Of a DNA stretch of 64,000 nucleotides, positions 18,389 to 48,437 are shown one piece after another. This DNA is from Eutreptiella sp. 'Long Island Sound 2002'. Lineage: Eukaryota; Euglenozoa; Euglenophyceae; Eutreptiales; Eutreptiaceae. How positions within the stretch are numbered: the first letter of the stretch is position 1; each line of letters opens with the position of its first letter. The notes below the pieces were generated by a model, which had not been told where the DNA came from, did not search any database, and was given only the letters and a program-made list of their open reading frames with translations. Both the position numbers and the translations under genes were made by a program. The stretch lies in assembly GCA_964036045.1 (NCBI GenBank), contig OZ038386.1:13985433-14049432 (forward strand), in the 5' to 3' direction.

Positions 18389-18810
18389 TTACGGTGCTAC
18401 AGCAGCCACCAAATGGACCAACACGTCCTTGACATCCGAGGAGATGTTCTTCCTCCTGAGATACTCCATCCAGACCGTGGTATACCTCGGCACAAAGCTG
18501 CTCGGAGGCTCCCACGAATCCCTGGATGCGGCGAATCCCTTCCAACGGACTTTATAAAGCCTCCCCCCAGGCGTCCCCGGGTCCGGCTTGTCCGCCAGGA
18601 TCCTCTCGGCGGTGAAGTTGTCGTCCTCACCCTCGTCGTCCGAGTCCACATCGCCGGCCGTGCACTCGAAGGTGACGGGACGTCCGCTGGGGTCTGGTGC
18701 TCGGGGACGAAGCTGGGTGTGGTCGCGGTCCAGGATCTTGTTATCCCCCACACGAACTGCATACACATCCTGCCCGACCTTCCGCACGATTACCCCCGGC
18801 ACATACCAGG
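18389..18810 (-). pseudogene. pol: Element D pol, 3' part: integrase C-terminus and chromodomain
   Basis: Starting at the insertion point of element A, the frame reads the integrase C-terminal beta segment (VPGVIVRKVG, then DRDHTQLRP), an acidic linker, and a chromodomain with FTAERILA, YKVRWKGF and SWEPPSSF, ending at TAA 18389-18391. The aromatic residues of the methyl-lysine cage region are present. Chromodomains on integrase tether the integration complex to histone marks and are the hallmark of chromoviruses. This segment is the missing tail of the pol frame that stops at 34907. Confidence 0.8.
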
Positions 18811-19342
18811 TGAAAGTGCTGCCCTGGGTCGTTGATGGTGCCGGAGGGCTCGGGGCCGGCAAGACCAGTGGGGCAGGCACGCGAGGAGTCTCCCTGAACG
18901 CTGCTATTGGGGGTAGAACCGGATACTCGGACACCAACGGAGGCGAGAGCAGCAACAACTGAAGCAAGGTCCATGCTGATTGTTATCCGGCAGAAAATCC
19001 CAGTCTATGAAGAAAATTGACGCGGATTATTCTAAATACATCTGAGTGTCCAAAACTGTCTGAAAAGATTTAAATAATCCGATTATGTAAAAATGTTTGG
19101 CCGATCTGGCCCGCGAGCGCGCGTCAGCGGCAAATGGCGATTCCAGCTAAAATAGCGGAACGCGGCGGATTTACGGGGAATGGACCGCGGAATCAAATCC
19201 GGCATATCAGAAATATATAGCAAATATCCTGAGACTGAGCTGCGAGGCGGCGATTCCGCCGAAGCAAAGAAAATGACCAAAATGTAGCCAATCTGGACAG
19301 AATGTCTGAAAATCTGAGCAGATGGGGCTAGCCGCACTTACA
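18811..19342 (-). repeat. 3' LTR of element A
   Basis: On the minus strand it begins TGTAAGTGCGGC right after the polypurine tract and ends in CACTTTCA. It equals 34374-34905 apart from about two substitutions. It also contains the start of the gag frame (ATG at 18974), which here leads into element D sequence instead of gag. Confidence 0.9.
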
Positions 19343-19352
19343 CTCCCCCTCC
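19343..19352 (-). other. Polypurine tract of element A
   Basis: The minus strand reads GGAGGGGGAG directly before the TG of the 3' LTR. This primes plus-strand DNA synthesis. Element C has a very similar tract. Confidence 0.75.
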
Positions 19353-20309
19353 AAAAACACACTGGGGTGTGTCGCTACGTCAACGAAGAACGTAGTGCGG
19401 GTAAGTCCCAGAAAAAAATAGAAATGTAGCCTCGATGAGGCGAAATCTGCTTGATCTGACCTGATTTGGGCTGAATTGGCACTGAATCAGGATGGATGAA
19501 CCTGAAATGAGACAGAATGAGAAGTGACGAACAGTCCTCCGTGCAGTAAAACATTAGGTTAAGGGCTAAAAAGCATGTAAACTTATCGAGAATCGATACC
19601 AAACCATGCATTGGTTGAGAATGAGGTAGATTATTGGTGGATTGAGTGGGGGAATCAAGAAATGGAGTGACATCTCAGCGCTCTGGCACAGTTTTTTTGT
19701 CGCGGGCACGCTACGGTGTCCTCGCCGAACTCTACATCGTGTTATTCCCGCTTTTCTCGTTCTGAAAAGTGCAGCATGTGCTTCAGATTTGGCGCATCTG
19801 GTGGATGATCACAAGATTCAGCAAAAATGAGAGTTAATTTGAGCAAAGATGAAGGAGATTAAACAATCACAGAGAGGGAAAACAAATACAAATGAAGTCT
19901 GCAGGCCCTAAGTGAACCACAGAAGGTAAGGATGTTTTTCTGTTCACTTAGATCTAAACAGATCTTCGAGGAATCAGAGAAGATGACCAGGAAATCAATC
20001 TAAATTGTCCTAAAATCAGCAAATTCCCTGAGATGAAGGTGAAATGAAGCGGAATGTCTAGAACTGAAACTACTAACACTTTCGTTTGGACTAAAGTTAA
20101 TATATATTGTCGTTTATTCAGCTCAATTGTGCTTTCCGGCACGTTGGTTCGCGAGCATCCAACAGATTCCATGAGAATGTGGATCATGTGATGATGCATC
20201 ATGATGGGACATGCTGGCCCTGGATCCTTGGCATGTAACGCGCCGAAGGTTCGCTGAAGGCGCCTTACTGACAGTATATAACTGAGAGACACCGAATTTA
20301 CAGTGGCGG
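19353..20309. other. 3' non-coding region of element A
   Basis: A/T-rich DNA between the polypurine tract of A and element E, with no coding signal. It continues at 22774-23478 beyond E. Confidence 0.5.
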
Positions 20310-20465
20310 TGTAACCGGACCAGCCCATGGGTCGCATGTACATACATTGTATTTCTTGATATTGCTTGATCTGCAGTGATTTGTCGCATTTGTGGTACAC
20401 ATTTATTACTGTTTGCAGTGATACTATGTTTTGAGTTTCGTCTCCGTGCTCATCACTTGGTTTTA
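20310..20465 (+). repeat. 5' LTR of element E
   Basis: 156-bp repeat pairing with 22618-22773. Confidence 0.85.
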
Positions 20466-20542
20466 TGGTGCAGAGGGTACAGCAAAATTTTTTTTGCTGA
20501 CCGATCCTGCTGCGCTGCTCTGCTTTGCCGAGTGTCGAGTTC

Positions 20543-21400
20543 ATGATGTACGAAGAGTACAAATTCAATGGGCAGGTGGACTACGGAATGCCCTGCTATC
20601 CAACGGTCGTGGGCCTGATTCAGGAGTCATCAAGTTCAAGTTCCGGTGGTCCTTCAGTCCCTGGGTTGGACCAGCACGAGTACGGTGCCTTCTTTCACTG
20701 CGAGGTCAACGAGCGACGTCGCATCTATGAGCGGTGGGTTCAAGATCGAAAATTTCGAATTATCAAGCCTCATCAGCAGGCTAGGGCTGGTATTTTGCGT
20801 TCTGCATTGGCGCCGCCAGCCTGCCCAGGACGTGGAGTGTCACTGGCAGCGACATCCGTGCCTCCAACGCCGACGGCAGCGCCATCCGTGCCTCCAACGC
20901 CGACGGCAGCACCATCAGTGTCTCCAACGACACTGGCAGCAACATCCGTGCCTCAGGCGTCGCCGAGGTCAACATCAGGCACAGCGCTGCAGGGGTCCCT
21001 GAGGTCGTTGCTTTCTCCAAGTCCAGCACCTGCAGCGACGTCCACGACACAAAGGAGTTCTGCAGCGCAGCCCTCTAACTCTCCAACGCCTTGTTCGTCG
21101 ACACCATCAGCAGCGACACCGTCGTCGTCAGCGCTATCAGCAGCGTTGCCTTTCTCAGCGTCGACACCTCCAGCGACGCTGCCTGCTTCTGTCGCGGCCT
21201 CGTCTTCGGCGCCATCCTCCTGGTTGTTGGCAACGTCGCCATCTCCATCTTCGCCAGATCCGCCAGCGACGCTGCCGCCAGCATCAGCGCCACCGCCGGC
21301 GCCTGCATCGGCACCAGCAGGGATGCAGCCTGCTCTGGGGTCTGCCCAGAAGAAGACCCACAGGGGCAATCGGAGAGGGCGCAAGCCCTTGGTAACATAA
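20543..21400 (+). CDS. Element E protein of unknown function (Ala/Ser/Pro/Thr-rich)
   Basis: ATG at 20543 opens a frame of about 285 codons ending in TAA. The first 75 residues are ordinary globular-looking sequence (MMYEEYKF, FHCEVNERRRIYERW). The rest is low complexity, dominated by Ala, Ser, Pro and Thr, with two near-identical copies of a motif containing SVPPTPTAAP. The C-terminus is basic (KKTHRGNRRGRKP), which could bind nucleic acid. Position directly after the primer-binding site suggests a gag-like role, but I see no capsid motif or zinc knuckle. It may equally be a captured host segment. Confidence 0.4.
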   Translation: MMYEEYKFNGQVDYGMPCYPTVVGLIQESSSSSSGGPSVPGLDQHEYGAFFHCEVNERRRIYERWVQDRKFRIIKPHQQARAGILRSALAPPACPGRGVSLAATSVPPTPTAAPSVPPTPTAAPSVSPTTLAATSVPQASPRSTSGTALQGSLRSLLSPSPAPAATSTTQRSSAAQPSNSPTPCSSTPSAATPSSSALSAALPFSASTPPATLPASVAASSSAPSSWLLATSPSPSSPDPPATLPPASAPPPAPASAPAGMQPALGSAQKKTHRGNRRGRKPLVT

Positions 21401-21655
21401 AGTTATGTTTTAAGCTTTTGCTTGCCTGCTGGGTCACAGGGGCTGCACTTCTTGCTGCCCTGTTTTGTTGGGACCAGTCTCTGGGTGTTTTTGCATATAT
21501 TTTTTTTGTCAGAGTTGGGGCTGAGGAGCCATCTGCCTGCCCTGCCTTTGTTTGTTGCACTGTCGCTGTCCATCAGTCGTGTTGTCAGCACAGCATTGCG
21601 CATCTTTGATCCACACCACTGTCTGTCCAGTCAGCACAGTCTTTCTGGCACAGTC

Positions 21656-21658
<3 letters not shown>

Positions 21659-21703
<45 letters not shown>
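21659..21703. repeat. (GA)n microsatellite in element E
   Basis: An almost perfect GA run within the non-coding half of element E. Confidence 0.9.
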
Positions 21704-21704
<1 letters not shown>

Positions 21705-22617
21705 CAGAGAGAAAGACTTCTGATTTTCAGCCAACCCCCCTGAGTTTCAGCTTAGTGGGGGGGTTGCTGAGTGTTGTGCCTTTGCGTGGGTAGTAGAGCC
21801 ACTACTAACTCTAGGCTTCTCTTCCCATGTTATTGTGTTTTGGTGGGGAGAGAGGCCATGTGAAGCTCCTAGGCGGCCTTCACCCCTTGGTACCTCTCGC
21901 CTTGGGGAAGTAGTTAAATCTACACGGCCTAGGTTGCTGGAGTCCCCCTATCTCCCTCGTAGGTTGGGCCGGAATATGCCGTAGTGGCGTAACCCCATTC
22001 TCTTCCCCCTTGGGGTTGCTCTTAACCCACATTTGCTATTTTCTTGGCACTTTCAGGCAGTTTTGTACAGTTTTTTCTGTTTTTGGCCAGTGCTGTGCAT
22101 CATCCACTGTCCAGGATCCCAGAGACAACAGATCAGTTTTTTTTTTGCTTGCCTGGATTGTTACAAGCAGCAGTGTTGCTGCTGGAGGGTGGTGCAGCTG
22201 ATGGAGCCCCACCATCTTGGGCGGCCATCTTCCCATGTGCGTGTCACGAAAGAATTTAGATCAGGGGTCTTCAGTTGGTGTCCGCGCTCTGTGCCGCGCG
22301 TGAGTGGAGCTGGTGTGTGCGCGCCTTGCTGTGCGTGTCTGTGCGCGCCGCGTGTTGCCGGCCATCGTGCTGTTGTGCGCGCCGTCTGGTGCCGGCCTAG
22401 GGGAGCAGGTTGTGCGCGGGTGAGTGGTGCCGGGGCAGGGTGTGTGGTGCGAGCGTGTGTGGTGCCGGGGCGCACAGTGTTATGGGGTGGTGCCTGCGGG
22501 TGGCCACAGGTATGGTGGTAGCAGATCAGTTTGTACATGGGCTGCCCAGACATCTCTGCTGGAGCACTCTACCAAAGCCTGGTGTTGCACACCCAGGCTT
22601 TTATTTAAGTGGGGGGG

Positions 22618-22773
22618 TGTAACCGGACCAGCCCATGGGTCGCATGTACATACATTGTATTATTTGATATTGCTTGATCTGCAGTGATTTGTCGCATTTG
22701 TGGTACACATTTATTACTGTTTGCAGTGATACTATGTTTTGAGTTTCGTCTCCGTGCTCATCACTTGGTTTTA
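22618..22773 (+). repeat. 3' LTR of element E
   Basis: 156-bp repeat preceded by the polypurine tract. Confidence 0.85.
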
Positions 22774-23478
22774 GCGGCGGTGTCAATCGACTTGGACAAG
22801 GCCAATCTTTCGATGGAGTCCCACAAGACACTTGGATTCACCATTTTCGACAGTTTCAGGTCGGATTGAGCTCACATTGGCGTGTGCCAAAAATACAACG
22901 AAGCTTACGGACTTCAGAGGTTGCTTTTAGAAGTCCCTAGAGCTCCTATCTGAAGGTTGTCTGAACAATTGACGTCTGGGTTTCGTATTTTGGTTCCACT
23001 GTTGCACAGAATGAAGGACAAACCTGAGAAATTCAAGGTAAATTTGAGGAATCTGGATCCGAATCCCGACTTTGGCTTCAGCATCACAGCAAATGAAGGT
23101 AAGATCTGAGTTCCTGGCGTCGCATCTGGTGCAGCCAGTACTACAGGGGGTGCCTGTAGGGGTGAATGTCGCTGGCCAGCGTTTTGATTATGTACATTTG
23201 CTTCCATCTGCACGAGTAGCCAAATTCCAAAGATGCACAGACCAACAGAGACAAGATTACCCCGAATCTGCCTGAATTAAGCCTGAGTTTGGTTTTTTCT
23301 GAACACGGCAGCACACTCCGTGGCTTTCGGTTTTCGACTTTCGATACGCTACCGAACGGAAACCAAAGAAAAATTGATTGATTGACGTCAAATTATCAAA
23401 CATTCGCAGTTCTCCACATCATGACATAAACAGAAAGAATGAACAGTGGATTGAGCAGAATGTGGTGGGATGGCTTCC
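22774..23478. other. 3' non-coding region of element A, continued
   Basis: About 700 bp between element E and the end of A pol. No gene is recognised. Confidence 0.5.
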
Positions 23479-26400
23479 TCAATTCGGCCAAGCACGAATA
23501 CATGTGACCACCAACCTGTCTGGCCTGGCCCTCGTACGGCTTGGGCGCTGCAAATCAGCGGCCGAACTCGAAGCTTGGTCCTCATTTGGCTCCTGGGCTG
23601 GCCTGACCGCAGGAGGGGAGATCGACGGATCAGCCCTGGAATGTGGCTGCTGAGGGCCGTAAAAGGCTGGATCTCGATTCACCACAGGTCTTTTTCCGTC
23701 GCTCTCCACTTGTCTGTCTGGTTTCGACAGACAGTCTGTCAGGAGTACTCCAATGTCGGGGTGCTTCTTCAGGAAGTCGATGAACCCCTTGGTGTATCCA
23801 TGGACAAAAGATTGGGCTGGTTCCCAGTTGTTGTGACTGGAATTAAAGCCCCTCCACTCACACAGAAATTCCCATTCGCCCTTGGCGTCACGTCTTGCTT
23901 CAACAATCCTCTTGAGTTCGTACTTCCCCCCTTCGATGACCCGATCAGACAAATGTTTCGCAGTCCAAAAAAGGGGTTTAACCCGATCCTTGGGGGAGGG
24001 GATCTCTCTCTTGAGGCGATTGCCCGAAACGTCAATTTCCCTGCTGACATCCACACGAATCCTCCACCTGTTCTCACCAAGACGCGCTGTAACAGCGAAT
24101 GGCCCCTCCCACAAGGGAAGAAGCTTGTCATCTCCGTCCAGGGTGGTTTCGGATTTTCGAAGCCAAACTCGATCATCGACTTCAAAATTGTGGGGGTTTT
24201 TTCGGCCTTGATTCTGGACCCAAAGCCAGTCAGCTTGATGCTTCTCGATTAATTTAGAGACAGTTTTATCTGCTCGTTGGACGTCGTCCAAAAACAACGA
24301 AGCATCTTTACAGGGGCGAGGATTATTCAACGGCATGTTCCACCAACACTTCTTTCGTCCAAAGACAATTTCATTTGGAGAAAGGCCATGATACAAAGGC
24401 GTGTTGTGGTAACGGCGAAGCATGGCGAATAGAATCTCAAGCCAATGGAAATCCTTTTCACTCGCGAGCTCCTTACGAAGCATATTTATAAGTGAGCGGC
24501 CGGCTCTTTCACCAGGCAGCGCTCGATGCGAGTGGATTTCACATCGCAGGTGGTGGATTCCAAGGCGAGCACATAATTCTCTCCACCATTCGGAGGTGTA
24601 CTCTTTGCCTGAGTCCGTAACCACCTCGGATGGGACGTCCCAACCTCCCATCCAGGTCTGCGCGCACCATTTGGCGGCAGCCTTGCCAGTCATCGACTCG
24701 ATGTTGCAAGGCAACACCTGAATGTAGCCGGAATGACGGCACTGAATAAGGAGCACACCATTGACCTTTTTATTGGTCCAATGGCACTCTTCGTCGTCGA
24801 GTTCACCGAGATAGAAGAAATCACTGGTGACTCTGTTAAAGAGGCGCTCCGGAATAGGATGTGGCCTCAGATGGCCGTGCTTCTTCGCGCTGGGGGGCGT
24901 CGAGACAGCACATTGGGCACATCCGGCGGCTACTTTCATGCAATGAGTATATAGCCGTGAGCCAAACAACCTATGTTTAATCATCGACCACAGTCGACGG
25001 CCATGTGCGTGGGGGGACTCCCATTTATGCCACCAGTTTAACACTCGGGGGGCCAGGGCGTCTGGTACGCACAATTTACCCTCCATCCACAGCTTCCCCC
25101 CATCCAACGAATACTCTGAAAAAATCCCATCCTTGTGAGCATCTTTGGATTTGAGATTTCCAAAGACCTCTTTAAACATGGGATCCTGCAGATAATCGGA
25201 CGTCCAGTCACGGATGATCAGGGAATCTTTCGGCACGGGTGGAGTTTTGGCCGGATCTCGACGCTTAATGCCCTGGATCAACCGAAATCTACTTACTCGT
25301 CGGGTATAGTCAAACCGTTTCACACTCCCTGAGGAGGGATCGGTGACTTTTTCCACGACTTTCAGTGTTTTGGTGCAGATCTCATGAGCATGCGCCGGAT
25401 CTGAGATGGCCGTGATGTCATGGCACGGTAATGCGTGCTGTTTAACAGCGCATTGCATGCATGCACGTTGAATGAGCTTTTTTTCTTCCTGATCCCATTC
25501 GATGATGACATGGCGGTCCTGCTCCGTACCATGGATGTTGGTACTTTGCAGCCCCTCTGAGGCGGGGTAAGCCCATCGGCTCAGAGCATCCGCTACCGTG
25601 TTGTGTTTTCCAGGCAAATACGACACATGAAGGTCAAACAGAGAGAGAAATTCGTGCCATCTGGCCCGTCGACCAGCTGGGCTCGCGACAGTATCAATGT
25701 GTTCGGTGGCCCAATACTCCAGAGATCGATGATCCGTCAGGACCTCGACTCGATTGGTGCCAACCCACGATTGGTACTTTTTTAAAGCACAGATGATGGC
25801 ATATGTTTCTTGCTCACGCGGCGACCATTGCATTTGGCGTGGGGCTAGCTTCCGAGACCAAAATGCAAGAGGGTAATGATCGCCGGTGGCTTCATCAACC
25901 TGTTCAAGGACAGCTCCGATCGCGTACCTAGAAGCGTCGGTTCTAATGTAGAAGGGTCGGTCGAATTGGGGGACATGCAACGTGGCGACTTCACAGAGGG
26001 CCGCCTTCAAGTGATGGAAGGCCTCCTCGCACTCGTCAGTCCACTTGACACGAACCTTTGAACCTGCCTTGCCCGCATCTCTCCCTACCTTCAATAATTC
26101 AGTGAGGGGAGCAGCAAATTTGGTATAATTCGGCACAAAAGTGTGGTAAAAATTGCAACAACCCAGGAATCCTCTCAACTCCGTGATCGTCTCAGGGCGC
26201 TTCCACTTCTGAATAGCGACGAGCTTCCCTGGACTGGGTCGTCGGGTGCCATTCTCTAGGAGAGAACCACAAAATTCGACTGATTTTAAAAATAATTTTC
26301 CCTTCTTTGGCCCACAAATCAGCTGATTAGCATCAAGAATGTCCAAAACTTGGTTCAGCTGCTTTTCATGTAGGGCCACCAGCTCGGCTTCGGTTAGTCC

Positions 26401-28662
26401 CTCCCCCTCCGTCGCGATGATTATGTCATCTATGTACACACTCACGAAGGCACGAAGCTCAGGATGGGCTGTAAAAAGCACATCCTCCATCATTCTTTGA
26501 AAAAATGAGGGGGCGTTCTTCAGACCCATGGGCATGACCGTCCATTGGACTGGGCCACATGGCGTGCACATACAGGTGAGAGGTCGGCTGTCCTTCCTCA
26601 ACGGCATTTGGTGAAAGCCGTGACGGAGATCCAGCACAGAAAACAAACGACCTCTTGCCCTCTTGGCGATTTCCTCCTCAATGAGGGGCAGGGGGTGCGA
26701 ATCCGCCTTGGTTTCGGCGTTGAGATTGCGAAAATCAACAACCATTCGCCAACCATCAATAGTGTTCTGGTCTGCAGGCGGTGGCTTCGGGACTGTGAAG
26801 GGTGCACAGCACCATTCGCTGGTCATACAACCCTCAAGCCAACCAAATTCCCTGAGATTTCTCTCGATGATTTTTCTGAGGATCTCATGTTTATGTCCAT
26901 GGTTCTCATAAGGACGTTGTTTTTTCGCCCTGTAACCTTCACGAAGCTCGATGAAGGCTTCACCGAACTGTCCACGGACAGGGGGGTCTTTGATCAACTT
27001 TCCTGAAAGGGTTGTGTCCTTCCGTTCCTCAAAAATCTTTTCTCTTGACTTGGAACACAACTCAGTGTCCACCTGATCACCAGCAATTACTGTCGAAAAA
27101 ACTTTGGCAACTTCTTCGGCCTTGGCAGGAAGAATCTTCTTACGGATGTCCCTAAAGAGGTCCGTATCAACTGCCTCTTGAAGATAGGTGGGTCGAGTGT
27201 CGACATTCCAGAGATTCTCTTCGTGATCCAGCTCCTCGAAAGGATCTATGAAAGCTTCCACAGGGGGTTTTTCATAAAAAACTCTGAATTTGCGGCGCGA
27301 TTTAAGATTCTTCTTCGCCCGTGCACTGAAGATTCTTTTCGATGTCGATCGTATTGGGGAAGAGGGAGACGAGGCGGATCCATTGGACGTTGGATCACCT
27401 TGGGTATCTGACAGACAAAAATCAGAAAAAATAGATTCATCATCAGTACCACGCTCAACCTCAGATTCAGACCCAACACATGAATCAGTACCAGAATCAG
27501 CAGAATTAGAGTCAGAAAGCTTTCCATCCACCAGGAATGCAAGCGAATTCCAGGACCGCTGTGGCAGGGGACCTGTGTCGTCCCTGGCATACAGCTTAAT
27601 CTTCCTGGGAAGTTCGATGTAATCTACACAAATGTCTTGTAATTCCTGAAACCAAGGCTTGTCGTCCCACAAGGGCACAACTAAAATCGCCTGGGTTTTA
27701 TCTTGCTTGATTTTGTGGATGACCTGCTGGATTAAGTGAAACGGAGGATTAATCCACAACTTCTTGTCCCATTTATGGGTCCAAGCGTCGCTAAAGTGCT
27801 TGTCAAAGCGCTTGTTCTTACGGTTAGCAAAGGCATCATACTGTGGCCAAAAGGAATGGTGTTCATGAAAATATTCACAAATTGCATCGCGCCATTTGTC
27901 GACAACTCTGTAGGATGAAGAGTGCCAGCGCGAAGGGCGTCGTGGCTGGGAGTCCCTACGAAGACATTCTAACTCTCGGGAGTAATCGGCACTCCCATTC
28001 ACCTCTGCAATGGTGACATCTTCACCAAATTTTGGTGTAACTTTTTGCTTCAAAAATTCTTCTGCACTTTTAAACCCTGCGTGCAAAAAACGAAATTCAG
28101 GACGCTCCAAGGGACCTGACTCCAGCAAAAAACAACGCCGATGACCTACGGGCGCCACCCTGTTCTTGCGAAGCCAAGGATGGCCCAAGTAAAGGTCATA
28201 CTTTATGTCGGCACGATAGAAGTAGTCATCCTTAAGGACAACTTCCTCCAAATTACCTTCTTCCCAAAGGTCTTGAGCGACCAAATGAGTTGATATATAA
28301 CAACCGCGTTGCCCACCTGCGAGAGAATGTCCAGAAACTCCCTCGAGGGTAACAGGATGAGGCGACTCAAACACGCAGTCGTCGGGTAAGAATGAATTGG
28401 ATTGGAGATTTACCTCTGATCCATTGTCACACAAACAAGTGGCGAGGTGGAAATTTCCCTTGCAATCAGAGACCCACAGCTTTGTGACAAACTGACGGGC
28501 CCTGTGCTTGGACTGTACACCTACCTCGTCCACTACAACAGAAGGATCCGCTGCCGGATCCAGGGGAGAGGAGACAAGCGACCCTACATCAAGTAATGGT
28601 CGATCAGGAATCTGGGGATCATGCCTGAAATCGCCTGGGGAGGGGCGATTTTCGTGGCTCCC
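23479..28662 (-). CDS. pol: Element A Pro-Pol: protease, methyltransferase-like, RT, RNase H, integrase, chromodomain
   Basis: The frame follows the nucleocapsid frame after a single TAG (28663-28665) and runs 1727 codons to TGA. Positions are counted from 28662. The aspartic protease motif LCDNGSEVN is near residue 75. A Dam-like domain with DAFANR, LWINPPF and ILVVPLW spans about 270-380. Reverse transcriptase has VLDLRHGFHQ and the catalytic YIDD near 745. RNase H has RTDASRYAIGAVL near 905. The integrase zinc segment is HAH...CAQC. The integrase core has SDFFYL, VVTDSGKEY and an E in LPGERAG. The chromodomain has YELKRIVEAR, FLCEWRGF and NNWEPAQSF near 1600. All catalytic residues I can check are intact. 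There is no own ATG at the start, so expression probably depends on readthrough of the TAG. Confidence 0.92.
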   Translation of the reverse strand, partial: GSHENRPSPGDFRHDPQIPDRPLLDVGSLVSSPLDPAADPSVVVDEVGVQSKHRARQFVTKLWVSDCKGNFHLATCLCDNGSEVNLQSNSFLPDDCVFESPHPVTLEGVSGHSLAGGQRGCYISTHLVAQDLWEEGNLEEVVLKDDYFYRADIKYDLYLGHPWLRKNRVAPVGHRRCFLLESGPLERPEFRFLHAGFKSAEEFLKQKVTPKFGEDVTIAEVNGSADYSRELECLRRDSQPRRPSRWHSSSYRVVDKWRDAICEYFHEHHSFWPQYDAFANRKNKRFDKHFSDAWTHKWDKKLWINPPFHLIQQVIHKIKQDKTQAILVVPLWDDKPWFQELQDICVDYIELPRKIKLYARDDTGPLPQRSWNSLAFLVDGKLSDSNSADSGTDSCVGSESEVERGTDDESIFSDFCLSDTQGDPTSNGSASSPSSPIRSTSKRIFSARAKKNLKSRRKFRVFYEKPPVEAFIDPFEELDHEENLWNVDTRPTYLQEAVDTDLFRDIRKKILPAKAEEVAKVFSTVIAGDQVDTELCSKSREKIFEERKDTTLSGKLIKDPPVRGQFGEAFIELREGYRAKKQRPYENHGHKHEILRKIIERNLREFGWLEGCMTSEWCCAPFTVPKPPPADQNTIDGWRMVVDFRNLNAETKADSHPLPLIEEEIAKRARGRLFSVLDLRHGFHQMPLRKDSRPLTCMCTPCGPVQWTVMPMGLKNAPSFFQRMMEDVLFTAHPELRAFVSVYIDDIIIATEGEGLTEAELVALHEKQLNQVLDILDANQLICGPKKGKLFLKSVEFCGSLLENGTRRPSPGKLVAIQKWKRPETITELRGFLGCCNFYHTFVPNYTKFAAPLTELLKVGRDAGKAGSKVRVKWTDECEEAFHHLKAALCEVATLHVPQFDRPFYIRTDASRYAIGAVLEQVDEATGDHYPLAFWSRKLAPRQMQWSPREQETYAIICALKKYQSWVGTNRVEVLTDHRSLEYWATEHIDTVASPAGRRARWHEFLSLFDLHVSYLPGKHNTVADALSRWAYPASEGLQSTNIHGTEQDRHVIIEWDQEEKKLIQRACMQCAVKQHALPCHDITAISDPAHAHEICTKTLKVVEKVTDPSSGSVKRFDYTRRVSRFRLIQGIKRRDPAKTPPVPKDSLIIRDWTSDYLQDPMFKEVFGNLKSKDAHKDGIFSEYSLDGGKLWMEGKLCVPDALAPRVLNWWHKWESPHAHGRRLWSMIKHRLFGSRLYTHCMKVAAGCAQCAVSTPPSAKKHGHLRPHPIPERLFNRVTSDFFYLGELDDEECHWTNKKVNGVLLIQCRHSGYIQVLPCNIESMTGKAAAKWCAQTWMGGWDVPSEVVTDSGKEYTSEWWRELCARLGIHHLRCEIHSHRALPGERAGRSLINMLRKELASEKDFHWLEILFAMLRRYHNTPLYHGLSPNEIVFGRKKCWWNMPLNNPRPCKDASLFLDDVQRADKTVSKLIEKHQADWLWVQNQGRKNPHNFEVDDRVWLRKSETTLDGDDKLLPLWEGPFAVTARLGENRWRIRVDVSREIDVSGNRLKREIPSPKDRVKPLFWTAKHLSDRVIEGGKYELKRIVEARRDAKGEWEFLCEWRGFNSSHNNWEPAQSFVHGYTKGFIDFLKKHPDIGVLLTDCLSKPDRQVESDGKRPVVNRDPAFYGPQQPHSRADPSISPPAVRPAQEPNEDQASSSAADLQRPSRTRARPDRLVVTCIRAWPN

Positions 28663-29364
28663 CTAGGCGTTCTGACCTCCAGTGGCTGCGTTAACATTGT
28701 GAACACAGCCTGATTCGTCGATCCACTCATCTTGGAACGGATCATCTGCTGGATTCAGGGCATTTTCGACGTAATCTCGATCCGCATCGGACACCTGATC
28801 TGCACCTGAGACCTGATCCACACGATGGTTGCCCTTTCCACGTCCACGGCCACGGCCGCCGGATGATGGACCTCCACCGTCGCCACGCCCTCTGCCCTTA
28901 CCAGAGAAAGGGGTTCCCGAAGGATTTCCCTTACCTTTACCCTGGAATCCTGGAGCATTTCCTTTGTTTGTACCGGATTGAGGGGTTTGGCCTGGATTTC
29001 GATTTCCGCCTCCGGCGTTGCCATTGGGACTTTTCTGGCCGTTCGGCTGCCCACCGGAGCCGGATGGAGTCCGATTTCCTGTGCCTTGAGACCCGCCAGG
29101 ACCTCCGGGATTTTTGTTTCCACCGGAGGGGGTCGAATTCCCTTTTCCCCCCTTTCCACCATGCACCTGTCTGTCATTCCTGTCTGAATTCTGCGAATTA
29201 CTGACATTGTCACCAATCACCTTGTGATCGTAAGCAGACCATCGGTGATTACCAGTAGAATGCGTCTTAGCTCGGTTCGTAGAACCTAAAAGAAGGCAGA
29301 TGCTACAATGATCCTGAACATTCCGGGTGTCATTCACCTTTTTGTTGCCCTTTTGGGCCCCATT
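28663..29364 (-). CDS. Element A nucleocapsid-like segment
   Basis: This 233-codon segment lies in the same frame as gag and pol. It follows TAA (29365-29367) and ends at TAG (28663-28665). The N-terminal part holds CSIC followed by closely spaced His residues (THSTGNHRW), a possible zinc-binding arrangement that is not a classical CCHC knuckle. The middle is Gly/Asn/Pro/Lys/Arg-rich, with many GNP and GKG repeats ending in RGRGRGKGNHR, typical of an RNA-binding nucleocapsid tail. An acidic stretch precedes the stop. No independent ATG is present at the start, so it is probably made as a Gag extension. Confidence 0.65.
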   Translation of the reverse strand, partial: NGAQKGNKKVNDTRNVQDHCSICLLLGSTNRAKTHSTGNHRWSAYDHKVIGDNVSNSQNSDRNDRQVHGGKGGKGNSTPSGGNKNPGGPGGSQGTGNRTPSGSGGQPNGQKSPNGNAGGGNRNPGQTPQSGTNKGNAPGFQGKGKGNPSGTPFSGKGRGRGDGGGPSSGGRGRGRGKGNHRVDQVSGADQVSDADRDYVENALNPADDPFQDEWIDESGCVHNVNAATGGQNA

Positions 29365-31584
29365 TTAGGTGTTTTGCTGGGTATTCTTGTTTCCCCCAAG
29401 ACCCTCATGGAAATTGTGATTGGCGGCGTCAGCGAGCCGCTCAACCTCTTCCCACAGTTCCTGCGGGGTGAACGAAAACACCCAGTTCCTGGCCTTCAGG
29501 CGATGGCCATGGAAGCTTACTCCCCTATTGAGGACTTGGACAAACAAGTCCCGATCCTCGTGTTCATTAAACTTGATTTTCCACGTGTTTTCAGTGAATT
29601 TCACCTTGGTAAACGACGTGGGGGAACACCTTTGAAGTGATTCCCTGACGGAAAGCCTGTTGGCCGAGGCATCGAAGCCATCGACCTCCGCCCACCAGGT
29701 CTTGACCTTTTCTTCGGACTGTTTATTCCGAAGGGTGGCGGCAGTTTCGGAGGGGATCTTGTCAAAAATCAGATTTTTCAGCTCAGCACTAGAAAATTTT
29801 TGGCCTGAATGTTCAGATTCTTCCACTAAATTCCAGAAGCGCTGTCTCTTGTCTTGCACTTCGTGCAAGATTAATCGCGAGAATGAAGGAAAATTCTTCA
29901 ACATCTGGTGGTAATGGTCCTCAGGCAGCCGGGATCCACGTACCTCCAACTGTTCCCACACCTCATCAAAGGTAAGGGGGGAACTTGAATCCTCACGATC
30001 ACTCCAGGTCCTGAGCCAAGTGTTGGCCGGCGCTCCCTCAAGGCAGTCCAAGAGGGCCATCAGGAACTGATCATCTTGAAGTTTTTGAGTCTTAACCCAC
30101 AGTTTAAATTCCCGTTGGAACTGAGGCCAACGTCTGGGGTTCCCATTATACTTCGGTTGCTTGGCAACCTGACGAAGTCGCAATGAAGTCGGATTAAGAA
30201 GTGAATCCAGCCCAACACCGGCCGTAATGGCAGACACCTTGGCGGCATCATTAGCCACACCAGCTCCGGCGAGGGTCTGGGCGAGCAACATCTGGGCTAA
30301 TGCATTGGAATCAGCAGCAGGAAGGGCAGTACGGGAGGCAGTTCGCTTGGCATTCTGAGCCTCAGTCCTAGCCTTCGCCGTCCTACTCTGAGATCGAGAG
30401 ATTGTAACCCTTTCCTTTAGCTTAGTCCTGCTGATCCTTGCATCGGTGGTCTTAGAGTCCACCGAAGGAGCAATCGAAAAAATTTCTGTCGCCTCCTCCG
30501 ACGGTTCTGTTGTTTGTTCTACCGATGATGCGCCCTCAGACCGCATGTGGGTCTTGAAAAGATCTTTAATTCCCAGCGTTTGAATGATGAGTTGCATTTG
30601 ATCTTTGAGCAATTGGAGCTCAGAGTCTCGCTGTAATCTGCAGGAGCAGTCGGCAGGACAGTACATACCGTGTCCTGAAGGGCCTGAGCAGGCTGTCGGA
30701 CCGCTAATCTCAGTGGTTCGCAGCCAGGAGTCCACTTGGGGAGCTCCTTCAGCCCTAATTTCTAGGCTTGCCTGCCTGGCTGCCTCTAAAATTCCTTCCT
30801 CAACCGCGGCGGCTAGATCGTCGCGGATGGAAACAGGGGGATGAGGGGCGGAGGGCCCGGCAACAGGTGCCTTGGTCTTCTCCTTCGGGAAGGGACTTGC
30901 CTCCCAGATCTGCAAAAAAATGGCAAAAGAGTCATCTTCTTGAGAACGCCACCACATCCTGGTATTAATTTCTTCTTGAAGGAGGAAAAAATATTCGAAT
31001 AAAAAATCAGAGGCGATTCTTTCTTGTCCAATCAGCTTAGACGTGGCTAAGAGACAAAGGGCCTCAAGCGCCTCAAGGTTACAAGTCACTTCTGAAGACA
31101 AATGGTTGTCCCATTGTGCCCAAGAGGCTGGTCGATTATAGGTGGGTACCTCACCTGGACCACCCATCTCAATGTCGTCAATGTCGGCTTCGATGGTCTC
31201 GAATGTGGGACATTGGTAAGGGATGTGGGTACCTGCCAGCTCCGTAAGGTCCACCGGAGCGTTGCCATCGCCGTAGGCTGGGAGATTCCAGCTGCTTGAT
31301 GGCCAATTTCGACTGGGATCTTGATGGTAATCTGGGCCTACACAGCTGCTGATTTGTGCCCTTCTTGGGCAGCTTGGGCTTGCGCAAGGCATTCCTCTCA
31401 AGGCCTCGTTCGCACAGCACCACGGCAGCGTAATTGTTACGTCTCCAGGAGCGGCGGGGTCTACGGGGCCGTACTGGGGAGCTAGCTGTGGTTGGGTTTG
31501 AGGTTTGAGGTTTGATTTTGCGGGTACTAGACGCTTTTCGGCCCCGGGGGGCCACCTGGTCGGGCCAGGTGATATCCTCCCCAC
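29365..31584 (-). CDS. gag: Element A Gag (capsid region)
   Basis: The frame runs to a TAA immediately before the nucleocapsid segment. The first roughly 30 codons (31584-31497) belong to the GC-rich insert; true Gag starts at 31496. The central part contains DSLLNPTSLR, NPRRWPQFQREFKLWV and CLEGAPANTWLRTW, which fits the retrotransposon Gag capsid family. HEVQDKRQRFW and related helices follow. The N-terminal 386 bp are duplicated at 33950-34335. The normal start is the ATG in the LTR at 34537, and this copy has been separated from it by the insert, so the present arrangement may not make intact Gag. Confidence 0.75.
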   Translation of the reverse strand: MGRISPGPTRWPPGAEKRLVPAKSNLKPQTQPQLAPQYGPVDPAAPGDVTITLPWCCANEALRGMPCASPSCPRRAQISSCVGPDYHQDPSRNWPSSSWNLPAYGDGNAPVDLTELAGTHIPYQCPTFETIEADIDDIEMGGPGEVPTYNRPASWAQWDNHLSSEVTCNLEALEALCLLATSKLIGQERIASDFLFEYFFLLQEEINTRMWWRSQEDDSFAIFLQIWEASPFPKEKTKAPVAGPSAPHPPVSIRDDLAAAVEEGILEAARQASLEIRAEGAPQVDSWLRTTEISGPTACSGPSGHGMYCPADCSCRLQRDSELQLLKDQMQLIIQTLGIKDLFKTHMRSEGASSVEQTTEPSEEATEIFSIAPSVDSKTTDARISRTKLKERVTISRSQSRTAKARTEAQNAKRTASRTALPAADSNALAQMLLAQTLAGAGVANDAAKVSAITAGVGLDSLLNPTSLRLRQVAKQPKYNGNPRRWPQFQREFKLWVKTQKLQDDQFLMALLDCLEGAPANTWLRTWSDREDSSSPLTFDEVWEQLEVRGSRLPEDHYHQMLKNFPSFSRLILHEVQDKRQRFWNLVEESEHSGQKFSSAELKNLIFDKIPSETAATLRNKQSEEKVKTWWAEVDGFDASANRLSVRESLQRCSPTSFTKVKFTENTWKIKFNEHEDRDLFVQVLNRGVSFHGHRLKARNWVFSFTPQELWEEVERLADAANHNFHEGLGGNKNTQQNT
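31111..31496. repeat. 386-bp direct duplication in A gag, inner copy
   Basis: Appears identical to 33950-34335. The two copies bracket 2453 bp of unrelated GC-rich DNA. Confidence 0.85.
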
Positions 31585-32762
31585 CGGGTCCTAGTGGGGG
31601 GCCCTCCAAGACGCACCTCCTGCCTGGTGGCGGAGTCCCCCGGGTTCACAGAGCTCGGAGCCCCGTCCTTCCCCGGCGTCCCCGTTTCGCCACTCCCCGG
31701 TCAGTGCATCAATTCGCAGCCGTTGCCGCGGGCGCTTACCCACTGCGTCGCCCCCCTAATGCGTGGTCGCCCGGGGCACCGGCGCCGCCGGGCCCGTGCT
31801 ACTGGCTTGTCGCCAGTGGGACCCCCTTGGGCTGGCGCGGTGGCTGCCTAGCCTAGGGGTTGGGGCGTGGCGCTGTGCGCCACTACTGCCTTGGCGGGTG
31901 CAGTGTCCCGTCTGTGTGTGCGCGGCGCTCGCGGCCGGTTCGGGGGGGTTCGGGCCGGTACCTGGTGTTGTGTTTCCCCTTCTTCCCCCTTCCCGCCCCG
32001 CGTATCCCGCGTTGCGTGTGGCGGGCCGTCCCGTCCGGGTGTCCCTTATCCTCGCTCGCTGGTACGCCATTCCATGTGGTCTGTGCGTTCCGCGCGCTCG
32101 GTCCGGTTGCCCTTCTGGTGGTCCCCGCGTGTCCTTTTCGTGTGTGTGCGCTCGCGCTCTCGCGGTGTCCGCTCCCCGCTGGGTGGTGTGGCGCGCGCAT
32201 CTCGCGTGGTCCCGGCACTGGGCGCTGGTAGGGCCGTTCCATGTGGTCCGTGCCCCTCCGCGTGTCCTGCCCCGGTCCCGTGCTCCGTCTGGCGTGCTTG
32301 GGGGGGGGCGGTCCGGTCCCGGTTCCCCCCTACTTGGCTTGGGGTTGCGGGGGCGGCGGCTGGGCGTCCCCGGGGGGGTGCCTTCGTCCTTTGCGTGGGG
32401 CGTGGGGCGTTCCTCTTCCCTCATCTGCCCGTCCACTAGGTGGGCTGTCGGGGTCTGCGTTGCGGGCGTGCGGTTGTGGGGGCCCCGCTCTGTTCTCGTG
32501 GGGGGGGAGAGAGGTGTCGTCTTGGTGTCCAGGCGCCGGCCCGCCGGATTCCCATGACGAGCCTGATGCGCACGGAGCTTCGCCCTGCGGGACGCGTGGG
32601 GGGGTTGGGGTGACCGTGGCTGGAGTGGTGCTCCAATGTCCCGGTTCATGGCCCAGCTGGGCAGCCCTACCGCGGGCTTACTCTTAGTACAGGGGGAGGG
32701 GGTTGCGGGCGCGTTTGTTCTGTGACCCGGGTGCCGGTGTATCTCTGAAGGCAGCCGCCCCG

Positions 32763-32815
32763 GAGGTAGCGCGCCAGGCGCGCGCCGCGTAGGAGCTGGT
32801 TCGAACCCCGGGATC
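32763..32815 (+). other. tRNA-like segment with B-box
   Basis: ggttcgaacc (32798-32807) is a perfect Pol III B-box core. About 25-35 bp upstream, ggaggtagcgcg (32763-32774) is A-box-like. A full cloverleaf cannot be drawn. Confidence 0.3.
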
Positions 32816-33054
32816 GGTGGTCTCCCACCGATCCCTTCGAATACCGGGCGAGGCCTCCCATCGACCTGTTTGAGTACAGGTGACGGTGCGCACTGCTGCA
32901 GGGGTGGGTGATTCCCATGTCTTTTGCTTTTCTTGGGTGGGGGGTAAAACGAACGAGACCTCCACCCGATCCACCGGTATCGGTGGTGGCGCGAGTTGCT
33001 GGAGGGGGGGGTGGTTCCCACGTCGCCAACTAGAGAGCTCTACGTGCAGGGATC

Positions 33055-33128
33055 CCAGGAGCACCAACGCCCGGGATCGAACCCCCGCACTGGACGATTG
33101 AAGACCGACGCTCTCACTACTGGTCCGC
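33055..33128 (-). other. tRNA-like segment with A- and B-box
   Basis: On the minus strand AGTAGTGAGAGCG (33121-33109) matches an A-box and GGGTTCGATCCC (33084-33073) a B-box, at tRNA-like spacing. The T-arm can form three to four pairs, but the anticodon stem is not convincing. It is more likely a tRNA-derived SINE head or pseudo-tRNA than a working tRNA gene. Confidence 0.45.
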
Positions 33129-33226
33129 GGGAGTCTCTTACGCAACTGAGGGGTGTCGTCGGCTATGAATCCCGTCCTGAGGGTGGGGCTGTGCGCCGTG
33201 AAGCGTGTTGCGCGTGCCGGGAGGCC

Positions 33227-34537
33227 TCAGTCCACACGCACGGGGTCGGGACAGGGGAGGGGGCTGGGTGGGGCGCGTTGGATCGCCGACTGACGTGCAC
33301 AGGGGTAAAAGGCGGGCAGTAGCACCACCGGGTCGCCGACTGACTGTAGGGCGGGGGGTCGCTCTGCCTCTTTCCGTCCCTCTGCCTTCCCTGGGCAGGC
33401 AACAAAGCGGGCGTCACTGGCGTTGCGCTGTCCATGGGGGGCGTGGCCCCCCATACCACTCCGGTTCGTGTTCACCCAGCCTCTCCGGGTACGATCTGTG
33501 CGGCGTCCCGGTGCGCAGGCGTGGGCCCGTTTGTTCTTCGCGGCCCCCTTGTGCGGTCGGGGCTGAAGTGCCGCCCCGGGGCGGGGGGGGGTGAGGGGCG
33601 GCCCGTGGACCGCTCCCCTGGGGGCCCCGGCTGACCTGCAAACCCCCCCTCTGTCCCCTCGGAGTGGGCTGTGGTCACGGGAGGGTCTTGTGGGGCGCGG
33701 CCTCCTTCGTGTTCCGTTGTGCGCGTTGCTCCGGCACGCCGGTGTGGGTTCGTGGGGGCAGGTCCAGCCGCCGCTGCCCTTACCGTGTCGCCGTTCCTCC
33801 TGTGGGTGGGGGCGCCCCCCCGGCCCTGGGGGGGCGGAGGGCCGCGCCTGTGGCTCCTCAGCTGGGGTGGGTGCGGGGGGGGGGGGGGGGGACACCCCGC
33901 TCGCTCTCGGGCCTGTGTGGGAGGGGGGGGGGGGGGGGAGTGGGGGGGTCCATTGTGCCCAAGAGGCTGGTCGATTATAGGTGGGTACCTCACCTGGACC
34001 ACCCATCTCAATGTCGTCAATGTCGGCTTCGATGGTCTCGAATGTGGGACATTGGTAAGGGATGTGGGTACCTGCCAGCTCCGTAAGGTCCACCGGAGCG
34101 TTGCCATCGCCGTAGGCTGGGAGATTCCAGCTGCTTGATGGCCAATTTCGACTGGGATCTTGATGGTAATCTGGGCCTACACAGCTGCTGATTTGTGCCC
34201 TTCTTGGGCAGCTTGGGCTTGCGCAAGGCATTCCTCTCAAGGCCTCGTTCGCACAGCACCACGGCAGCGTAATTGTTACGTCTCCAGGAGCGGCGGGGTC
34301 TACGGGGCCGTACTGGGGAGCTAGCTGTGGTTGGGACACCAAAGGAACAACATTCAGGTAGCCTCTGCTACCATGAAAGTGCTGCCCTGGGTCGTTGATG
34401 GTGCCGGAGGGCTCGGGGCCGGCAAGACCAGTGGGGCAGGCACGCGAGGAGTCTCCCTGAACGCTGCTATTGGGGGTAGAACCGGATACTCGGACACCAA
34501 CGGAGGCGAGAGCAGCAACAACTGAAGCAAGGTCCAT
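33227..34537 (-). CDS. gag: Element A Gag N-terminus, starting in the LTR and running into the insert
   Basis: ATG 34537 lies inside the 5' LTR, 163 bp before its end. The frame crosses the LTR/internal boundary; the primer-binding site is read as HGSRG. It continues through the 386-bp segment with PGDVTITLPW and TFETIEADIDD, and at 33950 leaves Gag for a Pro-rich frame in the GC-rich insert, ending at 33227. In copy A2 the same LTR start and primer-binding-site translation are visible, so the LTR start is a family trait. In this copy the protein is truncated by the insert. Confidence 0.65.
   Translation of the reverse strand: MDLASVVAALASVGVRVSGSTPNSSVQGDSSRACPTGLAGPEPSGTINDPGQHFHGSRGYLNVVPLVSQPQLAPQYGPVDPAAPGDVTITLPWCCANEALRGMPCASPSCPRRAQISSCVGPDYHQDPSRNWPSSSWNLPAYGDGNAPVDLTELAGTHIPYQCPTFETIEADIDDIEMGGPGEVPTYNRPASWAQWTPPLPPPPPSHTGPRASGVSPPPPPAPTPAEEPQARPSAPPGPGGRPHPQEERRHGKGSGGWTCPHEPTPACRSNAHNGTRRRPRPTRPSRDHSPLRGDRGGVCRSAGAPRGAVHGPPLTPPRPGAALQPRPHKGAAKNKRAHACAPGRRTDRTRRGWVNTNRSGMGGHAPHGQRNASDARFVACPGKAEGRKEAERPPALQSVGDPVVLLPAFYPCARQSAIQRAPPSPLPCPDPVRVD
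33950..34335. repeat. 386-bp direct duplication in A gag, outer copy
   Basis: Same sequence as 31111-31496, offset 2839 bp. This copy is contiguous with the LTR and primer-binding site. Confidence 0.85.
34359..34373 (-). other. tRNA primer-binding site of element A
   Basis: The minus strand reads TGGTAGCAGAGGCTA immediately after the LTR end CACTTTCA. It matches the sites of D2 and A2, and resembles initiator tRNA-Met complements. Confidence 0.8.
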
Positions 34538-34905
34538 GCTGATTGTTATCCGGCAGAAAATCCCAGTCTATGAAGAAAATTGACGCGGATTATTCTAAAT
34601 ACATCTGAGTGTCCAAAACTGTCTGAAAAGATTTAAATAATCCGATTATGTAAAAATGTTTGGCCGATCTGGCCCGCGAGCGCGCGTCAGCGGCAAATGG
34701 CGATTCCAGCTAAAATAGCGGAACGCGGCGGATTTACGGGGAATGGACCGCGGAATCAAATCCGGCATATCAGAAATATATAGGAAATATCCTGAGACTG
34801 AGCTGCGAGGCGGCGATTCCGCCGAAGCAAAGAAAATGACCAAAATGTAGCCAATCTGGACAGAATGTCTGAAAATCTGAGCAGATGGGGCTAGCCGCAC
34901 TTACT
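34374..34905 (-). repeat. 5' LTR of element A
   Basis: 532 bp, pairing with 18811-19342. The outer end abuts TSD accagg at 34906-34911. Confidence 0.9.
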
Positions 34906-37900
34906 ACCAGGACGCCTGTCGATGCCTGGACAGGACATCCTTGTGGTGCCGCTCCACCCATAGGGTGTCTTGGAGAGCATATTTTTGGACTTTTCCCTGC
35001 TTGAAGTACTTGGCCCTCTTCTCATGCTCGTCCTGAAGTGCTTTGCACACCTTGGCCGCCGTGTCGTCCGCCTCAGCCATCATAGCGTTCGCATCCCGGG
35101 CCACTTTGCCATGGTTCAACCACGGGAGAGTGCGTGACACTCGATCCCGTAGGAACAGGATACGATGGGGCGACTGTCCAGTGGGCCCCGGAAGGTCATG
35201 GTACGCCTGGAGTACTCTCCACAGCGAATTATACCAGTTACGGCCCGGTTCGTCAATGTGCAGCTGGTGGAACTTCTCGAACATCTGCCGCCCGGCCACC
35301 TCAGCCCGGCCATTCGACCGGCTGTGGTACGCCACAGTCTTGGCTTGCCGAATCCCCATGTGCTTGCACATCATCTTGAACCACGTCCCCACGAATTGAC
35401 TGCCCCGTTCGCTGCAGATGACAGCCGGGACATCAAAAATCGTCAGCCAATGCCTGATCATGGCGTTGGCGACGGTTCTGGCCTGCAGACCCACTCCATG
35501 CTTGTCCTTCTTGTCTTTCTTCTTGGACTTCTTGCTGGGGACTGCAACAATATACCCGCTGTGCCTGTCCACTGCCAGGATGACACAATCATGGGTCTCT
35601 CCTTCCACGGTGACCTCCGGCATGGCGAACACATCCATGGCCACTGACCGCATAGGGGCCTCCAGTATGGCCGTATACACCGGGTTGCCCGCCTTGGAGT
35701 GGTTGGGGCTCTTCGTGGCCCGACACACGGCGCAGTCGCTGCAGTACTTGTCCAGGATGGCGTAGTACCCCGGTGGGAACTTGAAGCGCCACTCCAGGTC
35801 CTGCTGCATCTTGTCCCGACGGGGATGCATGAGCTGGGCGTTATGCCAGTGGTCAATGAGCTCCTCCATTCGGTTATCAGGGACCAATAGCTTGTCCTTG
35901 AGGAATAGCTTATCCCCATCCTCGGTCAAGCCCTCAGGCCATTCGTCGTCCGACGGGGCGCTCACGGCATTCCAGTACCTGCTCCAGTGGTCGGATGCCG
36001 CATAGTCATCCGACCAGTCTTCTGTGAGCACCGACCTGACTAGCTCTACGGGGGCCACCATCCATTGCTCGAGGGTTTCCTCTCGAATAGCTTGGACTCG
36101 GGCGCCCCGGAACTTGGCCAGGTCTGTACGGTTTGCCATCACCACAAAGCACTTGACCCCCTCTTGCTCCATGGCCTTCTCCATCTCGATGATGCGCTTG
36201 GCCTCCTCGGTCTCCTCGGCGTCCCCATGGCTGGATATGTCCATCCACGCTTTGCCCGCGGGGTAGGCCCATCGACTGAGGCAATCTGCCACAGTGTTGT
36301 CCTTCCCCGGGACATACACGACGCTGAGGTCGAACTTGGCGAACGTCTCGTGCCACCGGGCCCTCCTTGCCGCCGGTCTCGAGGGGGTGTCGACGTGCTC
36401 CTTGTGCCAGCTCTGTAAGGACTGATGGTCCGTACAAACCACCACCGGTTGCAATCCGATGTGGCCAGACCACTTGCTGAGCGCACAAACAATGGCGTAC
36501 GTCTCCTTCTCCCTAGCGGTCCAGGTTCGACGTTGACCCTCGGCCAGGATCCGACTCCAAAACGCCACGGGTACGTGCGACCCGTCGTCCCGGACCTGCT
36601 CGAGGACTGCCCCTACAGCATAGTCCGAGGCATCCGTCCGTAGCACGAATCCCTTGTCCGGGTCCACCAGGAATAACCCCAGCTGCCCCAGGAGTCGCTC
36701 CTTCAGGCGGCTGAACGCATCTTCGACCTCAGGGGTCCAGGCAAGCTTCTTCTTGCTCCCCTTCCGGCCATCGAGCTTGCCTACCTGCAGCATCTTGTGC
36801 AGCGGCCCCGACAGTTCTGCATACATCCGGACATAGCCCGAATAGTAATTACAGAACCCCATGAAGGATCGGAGTTCGCTGATGGTCTGGGGCTTCTCCC
36901 AGTGGTGCAGGGACGCCAGTTTCCCAGGCATGGGACGGCGTTGCCCGTGACCAACCACGTGACCCGCGAACTCCACTTCCTTCACGAAGAGCGAGGCTTT
37001 GGTGGGCTTGCACACAATGTTGTGCTTGTCCAGCTCGCTGAGCACTCGGCGCAGATCCTTCTCATGCGCTTCGATGAGCTCGTCCTCAGTCATGTCCTCC
37101 GTGCCGGACCCGATGATGATGTCATCCACAAAGGGGTCGGCACAGTCGCGGACAGGACCGAGTAGGTCCTCCATCATGCGCTGGAAAGCGGCGTTGCCAT
37201 TCTTGGCGCCCATAGGCACCACTTTCCACTGCATGGGCCCCAGCGGCGTCGACATCGCTGTGCAGGGCCTGGAGTCCGGGTGTAGCGGCATCTGGTGATA
37301 GCCGTGTTTCAGGTCTAACACCGTAAAGGTCCGCTTTTTCTGTTGCTTTGGGAGGATGGTGTCGATCAGAGGAAGCGAGTACGAGTCGTGCTCGGTTTGC
37401 TCGTTCAAACCCCTGTAATCCACCACCAACCTCCACTCGCCCTTCTCCTTCTTGGGCACGATAAAGGCCCGGCTGGCCCACTCACTGTCGGAGGGGTCGA
37501 TCCAGCCCCGCTCAATAAACTCGGCCAACAACTTCTTCATGGCCTCGGCCCGATCGCCCTGAAGTTGGTACTCCCGATGACGATAGATCTTGGGGTTCGG
37601 CTTCAGCTTGATCTTCGCTGTGCCAAACCTCCCACGATCTGGAGGGTTCTTGTTGGCGACGCCACTGAATAGCCGCGGATAGGCATTGATCAGCCTCTCC
37701 TTCAGCTCGGCGACCTTCGGGTTCTCCTGGGCCTCTTCAGCCGCTTGCTTCGGTATCAATACAACCGACCGCACTGCGGTATAGGCCTCTTCCGGGTCCG
37801 AGTCCGACTTCTCCTCGTCCGATATGCCGTCTTCATCGTCGTGGGGAACTCTTCCCACCGATAATCTTAGGAAATTTGCGGCATCGGCCTGGTTCTTGTT

Positions 37901-48370: not shown

Positions 48371-48437
48371 TCCCTTGTGACCTTTTGAACCGACCCTGAG
48401 AAGAAGTGCAGAACAAAAGCTCAACAACAAGTCCATC

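Follow-up and report, generated by a model that had tools for sequence, protein, structure and literature searches.

Why does a long terminal repeat (LTR) retrotransposon carry, between its protease and its reverse transcriptase (RT), a domain that looks like a DNA adenine methyltransferase? The question is raised by element A, found at 18811-34904 on the minus strand of a 64,000-nucleotide stretch of the Eutreptiella sp. 'Long Island Sound 2002' genome (contig OZ038386.1, positions 13,985,433 to 14,049,432; hereafter the window), where it is inserted in another element, B, and shares the window with a third one, D. The pol open reading frame (ORF) of element A (23479-28662, minus strand, 1727 amino acids) encodes, in order, a protease-like part, a Dam-type domain of about 145 residues, RT, RNase H, integrase and a chromodomain. 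A preliminary description of the locus had reported four motifs between protease and RT, and these are indeed found there in the same order and in a single open frame of the minus strand: DAFANR (27820-27837), LWINPPF (27739-27759), ILVVPLW (27667-27687) and AFLVDG (27523-27540). The place given to the domain was therefore right but its span was too short: the alignment to phage Dam enzymes begins upstream, at VVDKW (near SSSYRVVDKW), so that 27511-27945 (minus strand) is the better span. Within this segment, DAFAN (27823-27837) is the counterpart of phage D-x-[AC]-A and putatively a cofactor-side motif, and NPPF (27739-27750) corresponds to catalytic motif IV by location and alignment. From Pfam matches, the phage alignment, profile-profile comparison and the predicted structure, we consider it very probable that the segment is homologous to Dam and constitutes a Dam-type (PF05869-like) N6-adenine methyltransferase domain.

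The homology to phage enzymes was found at several levels. The Pfam Dam model (PF05869, curated cut-off 28.1 bits) matched the isolated segments of element A (22.0 bits, E 1.4e-4) and of element D (E 1.7e-3) below the cut-off, with weaker values when whole ORFs were scanned (E 0.045 for A and 0.026 for D), and a relative from the same family as A, P0044, exceeded the cut-off with 30.4 bits. In alignment A3, 20 of the 53 members also matched Dam at E <= 1 (best 3.8e-7), as did six of the eight members of the domain-trimmed alignment A10 at E <= 10 (best 1.3e-5), and the Pfam matches of these eight members list no methyltransferase family besides Dam. No Dam match was obtained in the Pfam scan of the element B segment, nor for five of seven proteins when these were scanned whole (P0029, P0050, P0087, P0096 and B). 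A tblastn search with the A domain against 50,697 phage records returned 578 records at E <= 10 (best E 0.05); each of the best 20 of these 578 covered 86-91% of the domain, 13 being annotated as DNA (adenine) methyltransferases and 7 as hypothetical proteins. In a direct BLASTP comparison, one such phage enzyme was 27% identical to A over residues 14-138 (pairwise E 9e-8). Profile-profile comparison by hhalign aligned A3 with nine phage Dam sequences at E 2.3e-7 (probability 93.5), and alignment A8, which has no D members, gave nearly the same values (E 3.1e-7, probability 93.2); the D family alone gave a weaker match (E 4e-4, probability 35). A match to a methyltransferase profile had been set beforehand as a test of the domain's identity, and it is provided both by the Pfam Dam matches, although those of A and D score below the curated cut-off, and by the profile-profile match to phage Dam.

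Structure prediction points in the same direction. The model of the A domain has a predicted local distance difference test score (pLDDT) of 87.7 and a predicted template modelling score (pTM) of 0.84; it was built from an alignment that includes phage Dam rows, the retrotransposon rows alone giving a poor model. Searched against a viral structure library, it had 29 matches at E <= 0.001, 17 of them named: nine DNA N6-adenine methyltransferases (template modelling scores by query 0.46-0.73), two other methyltransferases, four of the WW/PCIF1 type and two uncharacterized proteins. The nearest solved fold is that of PCIF1/CAPAM. The predicted fold is thus methyltransferase-like, its best structural neighbours being N6-adenine methyltransferases, and the Rossmann-like fold that had been anticipated is borne out by this confident model.

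How old is the association, and has the domain been under constraint? We extracted 51 A-family domains from 88 profile hits, retaining those covering at least 125 of the 145 positions and excluding B and D members; 30 are left once sequences at least 90% identical are removed. These copies were found with A-like queries and many come from decaying fragments, so the counts that follow lean to conserved copies. Motif IV is well preserved (N in 46, P in 43, P in 49 and F in 46 of the 51), as are the D (49/51) and N (48/51) of DAFAN and the W that precedes motif IV (49/51); several further sites equal the motif sites in conservation. A profile made from the 51 A-family copies alone scored relative P0096 at 41.5 bits, D at 31.0 and B at 22.2, the maximum among 4000 shuffled domains being 11.8; conversely, a D-only profile scored A at 22.0 and B at 2.6 bits (shuffled maximum 11.2). 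A and D therefore find each other reciprocally, and B is found through A alone. RT identities are 46% for A-B, 28% for A-D and 63% for D-P0096, and those of the Dam-type domain 19%, 22% and 38%, respectively; both proteins agree in grouping A with P0053 and P0054, and D with P0010 and P0096. This shared grouping fits a single old acquisition followed by descent.

The pattern of divergence within the polyprotein is also informative. Between A and a distant subfamily (P0043, P0053, P0054 and P0056), the domain is 49-52% identical, against 24-32% for both flanking linkers and 42-51% for the protease part; for P0053/P0054, the values are 51-52% for the domain, 24-30% for the linkers, 47-48% for the protease part and 64-67% for RT. 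For the nearer P0023 and P0029, identities are 55-61% in the domain, 54-55% in the upstream linker and 31-43% in the downstream linker, so that the contrast there is with the downstream linker only. No clear difference in identity between domain and linkers was seen between A and B, P0004 or P0096. On the whole, the domain appears to be conserved more in the manner of an enzyme than of a linker. The view that it is an old, selected part of this lineage holds up well, since the motifs are kept in the A family and the domain stands above its linkers in the distant comparison: judged from these alignments, an old Dam-type domain is evidently under selection in this Ty3/gypsy lineage.

An equivalent domain had been described in B and D as well, and the two cases turned out differently. 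The domain of element D (50994-51473, plus strand) occupies the position that it has in A and has the Pfam match given above and an NPPF motif (51234-51245, plus strand). The segment of element B (38268-38747, minus strand) is in the expected place, as judged by the A-only profile and by alignment, but it reads YWHGSLE where A has WINPPFH, and motif IV is absent along with any Pfam match to Dam. The B RT is near that of A, yet the B domain has diverged fast together with the loss of NPPF. The Dam-like segment of B thus looks catalytically dead in this copy, an indication that motif IV can be lost within a branch and the domain left to diverge.

We propose that a branch of chromoviruses captured a phage-type Dam domain ahead of RT and that this domain may still write N6-methyladenine (6mA) on the element's own complementary DNA (cDNA) during reverse transcription, delivering an adenine mark with each new copy, and would have been kept for it across deeply split families; we give this reading as a whole a probability of roughly 0.4. 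Its central part, namely that element A encodes an active methyltransferase acting on its own cDNA, seems to us a little short of an even bet. The Dam-type domain would be made within Pol, would probably enter the particle together with RT and might be freed by the protease; it would bind S-adenosylmethionine and transfer methyl groups to the adenines of the cDNA while RT makes it. The element would likely benefit in that host nucleases or silencing spare marked cDNA for longer, or in that the cDNA is already marked on reaching the insertion site. The first-strand motif D-x-[ACF]-A is present in A, where DAFAN aligns to phage Dam. Several observations weigh against the proposal: (i), the first motif reads ELFAS in D and KFFAN in P0096, without the Asp; (ii), the nearest solved folds of the A domain act on RNA and, (iii), no 4-mer footprint was found. 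Our confidence in an active enzyme acting on cDNA is lowered because D and P0096 are without the Asp of the first motif; nevertheless, both retain NPPF despite the altered first motif.

The alternative that survives best, and that we still regard as rather unlikely, is that the domain is a derived methyltransferase fold without catalytic activity, retained for nucleic acid binding or for the architecture of Pol. Element B would be an example, as it keeps the place of the domain and the C-terminal AFLVDG strand without NPPF, with a domain 19% identical to that of A against 46% for RT; D also has no counterpart of the upstream D-x-W seen in phage Dam, and the missing first-motif Asp of D and P0096 counts on the same side. 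However, motif IV and D-x-F are among the most conserved sites of the 51 A-family copies. D and P0096 have also kept NPPF although their domains share only 22-27% identity with that of A, and a fold that served for binding alone would have no need of this motif. It is also unlikely, and a shade more so, that the enzyme is an active N6-adenine methyltransferase whose substrate is RNA, e.g. the packaged genomic RNA or a cap-adjacent adenosine, rather than cDNA. The structural proximity to PCIF1/CAPAM would suit such an activity, but no PCIF1 sequence match was found in Pfam (scans up to E 10) or among PDB sequences, whereas phage DNA Dam matches A both by sequence and by predicted structure; a T1-like phage Dam itself matches no PDB sequence at E <= 1, so that the ranking of PDB folds is biased to structures that have been solved.

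Chromodomain elements target chromatin, which might suggest that the enzyme acts on host DNA, marking target chromatin or invading viral DNA instead of the element's own cDNA. Retrotransposon methylases in general have been proposed as antiviral tools in a passage of PMC6338049. We nonetheless find this improbable, as the domain lies inside Pol beside RT and would be expected in the particle with the cDNA, and no host-side evidence was found here. Finally, a chance resemblance of motifs, for which one could invoke the Pfam score of A below the curated cut-off, is practically negligible given the independent matches of A and D, the control of 4000 shuffles, the colinearity over most of the domain and the profile-profile E of 2e-7.

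The elements carrying the domain are assigned to the Ty3/gypsy chromovirus type by their domain order, chromodomain and LTRs. RT and RNase H of A, B and D score above or near the Pfam cut-offs and the rve matches score under them. RT, RNase H and DDE integrase follow the protease in that order, the protease of A being recognized through its alignment to B alone. In element A, RT (RVT_1, E 2.3e-25) lies at 26266-26790, RNase H (E 2.5e-29 / 2.4e-25) at 25639-26043, the integrase core (rve, E 9.1e-7, under the curated cut-off) at 24529-24741 and the chromodomain, at the C-terminal end of pol, at 23809-23922, all on the minus strand. The chromodomain at the integrase C-terminus reaches 27.2 bits in A and 29.4 bits in the B fragment with PF00385, both above the cut-off of 25.1, against 15.2 bits in D. 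Direct LTRs with a short target duplication were found for A and D. A DIRS retrotransposon was considered and rejected: in the A, B and D ORFs, Pfam finds rve integrase but not Phage_integrase, and their Dam-type domain precedes RT.

The LTRs of element A are 99.4% identical over 538 nt (BLAST, 18804-19341 vs 34369-34904); the 5' LTR occupies 34369-34904, with an approximate inner border, and the 3' LTR 18811-19341, both on the minus strand. The heptamer TACCAGG stands at both ends (18804-18810 and 34905-34911) and is likely the target duplication. Element A is thus a young LTR retrotransposon. Element D (47645-58826, plus strand) has LTRs at 47645-48355 and 58116-58826 that are 99.2% identical over 711 nt and is flanked by TGGAC (47640-47644 and 58828-58832). 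These LTR identities indicate recent movement of both A and D, each of which has NPPF. Their families look abundant, as near-identical relatives in the protein database form clusters of 4843 (P0002) and 5370 (P0004) members.

The protease-like part of A (28153-28455, minus strand, borders approximate) was delimited by alignment to element B (tblastn E 4.6e-9 over A residues 56-380), which itself has a PF13975 match below the cut-off (E 1.1e-3); the Pfam scan of A gave no protease match. The likely active site of A (28414-28431, minus strand) reads DNG instead of D[ST]G, as it also does in P0001-P0003 and P0043. In this copy of B the site is GTG (39141-39155), without the catalytic Asp. The protease part of D (50610-50993, plus strand), with a DTG site, is recognized through the relatives P0004 and P0010, which have Pfam protease domains; in this copy, a stop codon (50991-50993) parts it from the Dam-type domain, the frame being open there in P0004, P0007 and P0010. 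The D RT lies at 52527-52997 (plus strand, Pfam E 2.2e-28). Element B is cut by the insertion of A: its RT-RNase H-integrase ORF, identified by Pfam and tblastn, lies at 34904-37912 (minus strand), and its probable remainder beyond A, comprising the integrase end and the chromodomain, at 18452-18808 (minus strand; tblastn with A pol, E 5.4e-9). Upstream of pol, element A has a gag-type ORF (29365-31590, minus strand), a name that rests on position, Pfam giving a weak DUF1759 match alone. Close to its 5' end, A carries an internal duplication with an insert: 386 bp of the 5' coding part are repeated with 100% identity at 31111-31496 and 33950-34335, flanking an insert of about 2.4 kb.

Elsewhere in the window, the interval 9895-12275 (plus strand) holds a further relative of element A, with gag-like matches at 37-64% identity and one LTR-like match at 70%; the pol sequences of A, B and D found no match there by tblastn. 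Two repeats may be LTRs or pieces of another element: a direct one of 1.28 kb (98%; 15414-16692 / 39908-41185) and an inverted one of 0.78 kb (97%; 16883-17655 / 41933-42709). A 65-nt minisatellite forms long arrays, crossed by several long open frames, at 42.4-43.0 kb and 60.96-64 kb. Such minisatellites, the thousands of family members and the megabase size of the contigs tentatively point to a large genome of a protist or alga.

How does this arrangement compare with known systems? Phage Dam (PF05869, in T1-like and lambdoid phages) is colinear with A over most of the domain and shares D-x-[ACF]-A, NPP[YF] and a later W; the A domain differs from it in being shorter, in having the GR..F and GNNKGS segments replaced and in being part of a polyprotein. 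PCIF1/CAPAM, the cap adenosine methyltransferase with the nearest solved fold, is likewise an N6-adenosine methyltransferase, and it has an NPPF motif. Unlike A, it is a cellular enzyme acting on mRNA caps, and no sequence match between the two was detectable.

Other retroelements have captured DNA methyltransferases: passages of PMC5890265 describe SymbioDIRS-Dnmt3 and KnitGypsy-Dnmt3, the latter a Gypsy element, and propose for SymbioDIRS-Dnmt3 a methylation of its own cDNA, i.e. the same logic for cytosine. These Dnmt3 enzymes modify cytosine, however, and are structurally unrelated to the A domain. Further captured domains include NADAR, another nucleic-acid-related enzyme, in the Pol of an Ectocarpus Gypsy element and, in a DNA transposon (Sola) of the same alga, a protein combining ParB with a predicted N4C/N6A DNA methyltransferase (both from parts of PMC12477816), as well as an AlkB-type demethylase ORF in an orchid Gypsy element, which removes a methyl group (in an excerpt of PMC9289625). 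According to PMC12695648, the host enzyme AMT1 is so far the hallmark of species with robust 6mA; if active, the element enzyme would offer a eukaryotic genome a source of 6mA independent of AMT1.

The closest precedent is found in DIRS-type tyrosine-recombinase retrotransposons, which, according to passages of PMC3783388 and PMC3266345, carry a phage/bacterial Dam-type domain (PF05869) within Pol. As these passages describe them, the domain follows RT/RNase H, in agreement with the preliminary description, and the elements have neither protease nor DDE integrase. In element A, the domain is instead located between protease and RT, in an LTR element with a DDE integrase and a chromodomain. Retrotransposon-borne DNA methyltransferases are rare, and Dam-type ones turned up in the literature searched for DIRS elements alone: open-access searches gave, among the matches listed, no Dam-type domain between protease and RT of an LTR element, one general sentence in PMC6338049 being ambiguous. 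A Dam-type domain in retrotransposons is thus already known from DIRS, and its place before RT in an LTR element was not found described in these searches. The function of the DIRS domain is called unknown in a passage of PMC3266345. LTR elements, whose particles and cDNA are well understood, suit direct tests of the role of an adenine methyltransferase. An intact-looking Dam-type domain that is evidently constrained and sits elsewhere in Pol, in LTR elements that are young and apparently present in many copies, would thus provide, next to DIRS, a second system for asking why a retroelement carries an adenine methyltransferase.

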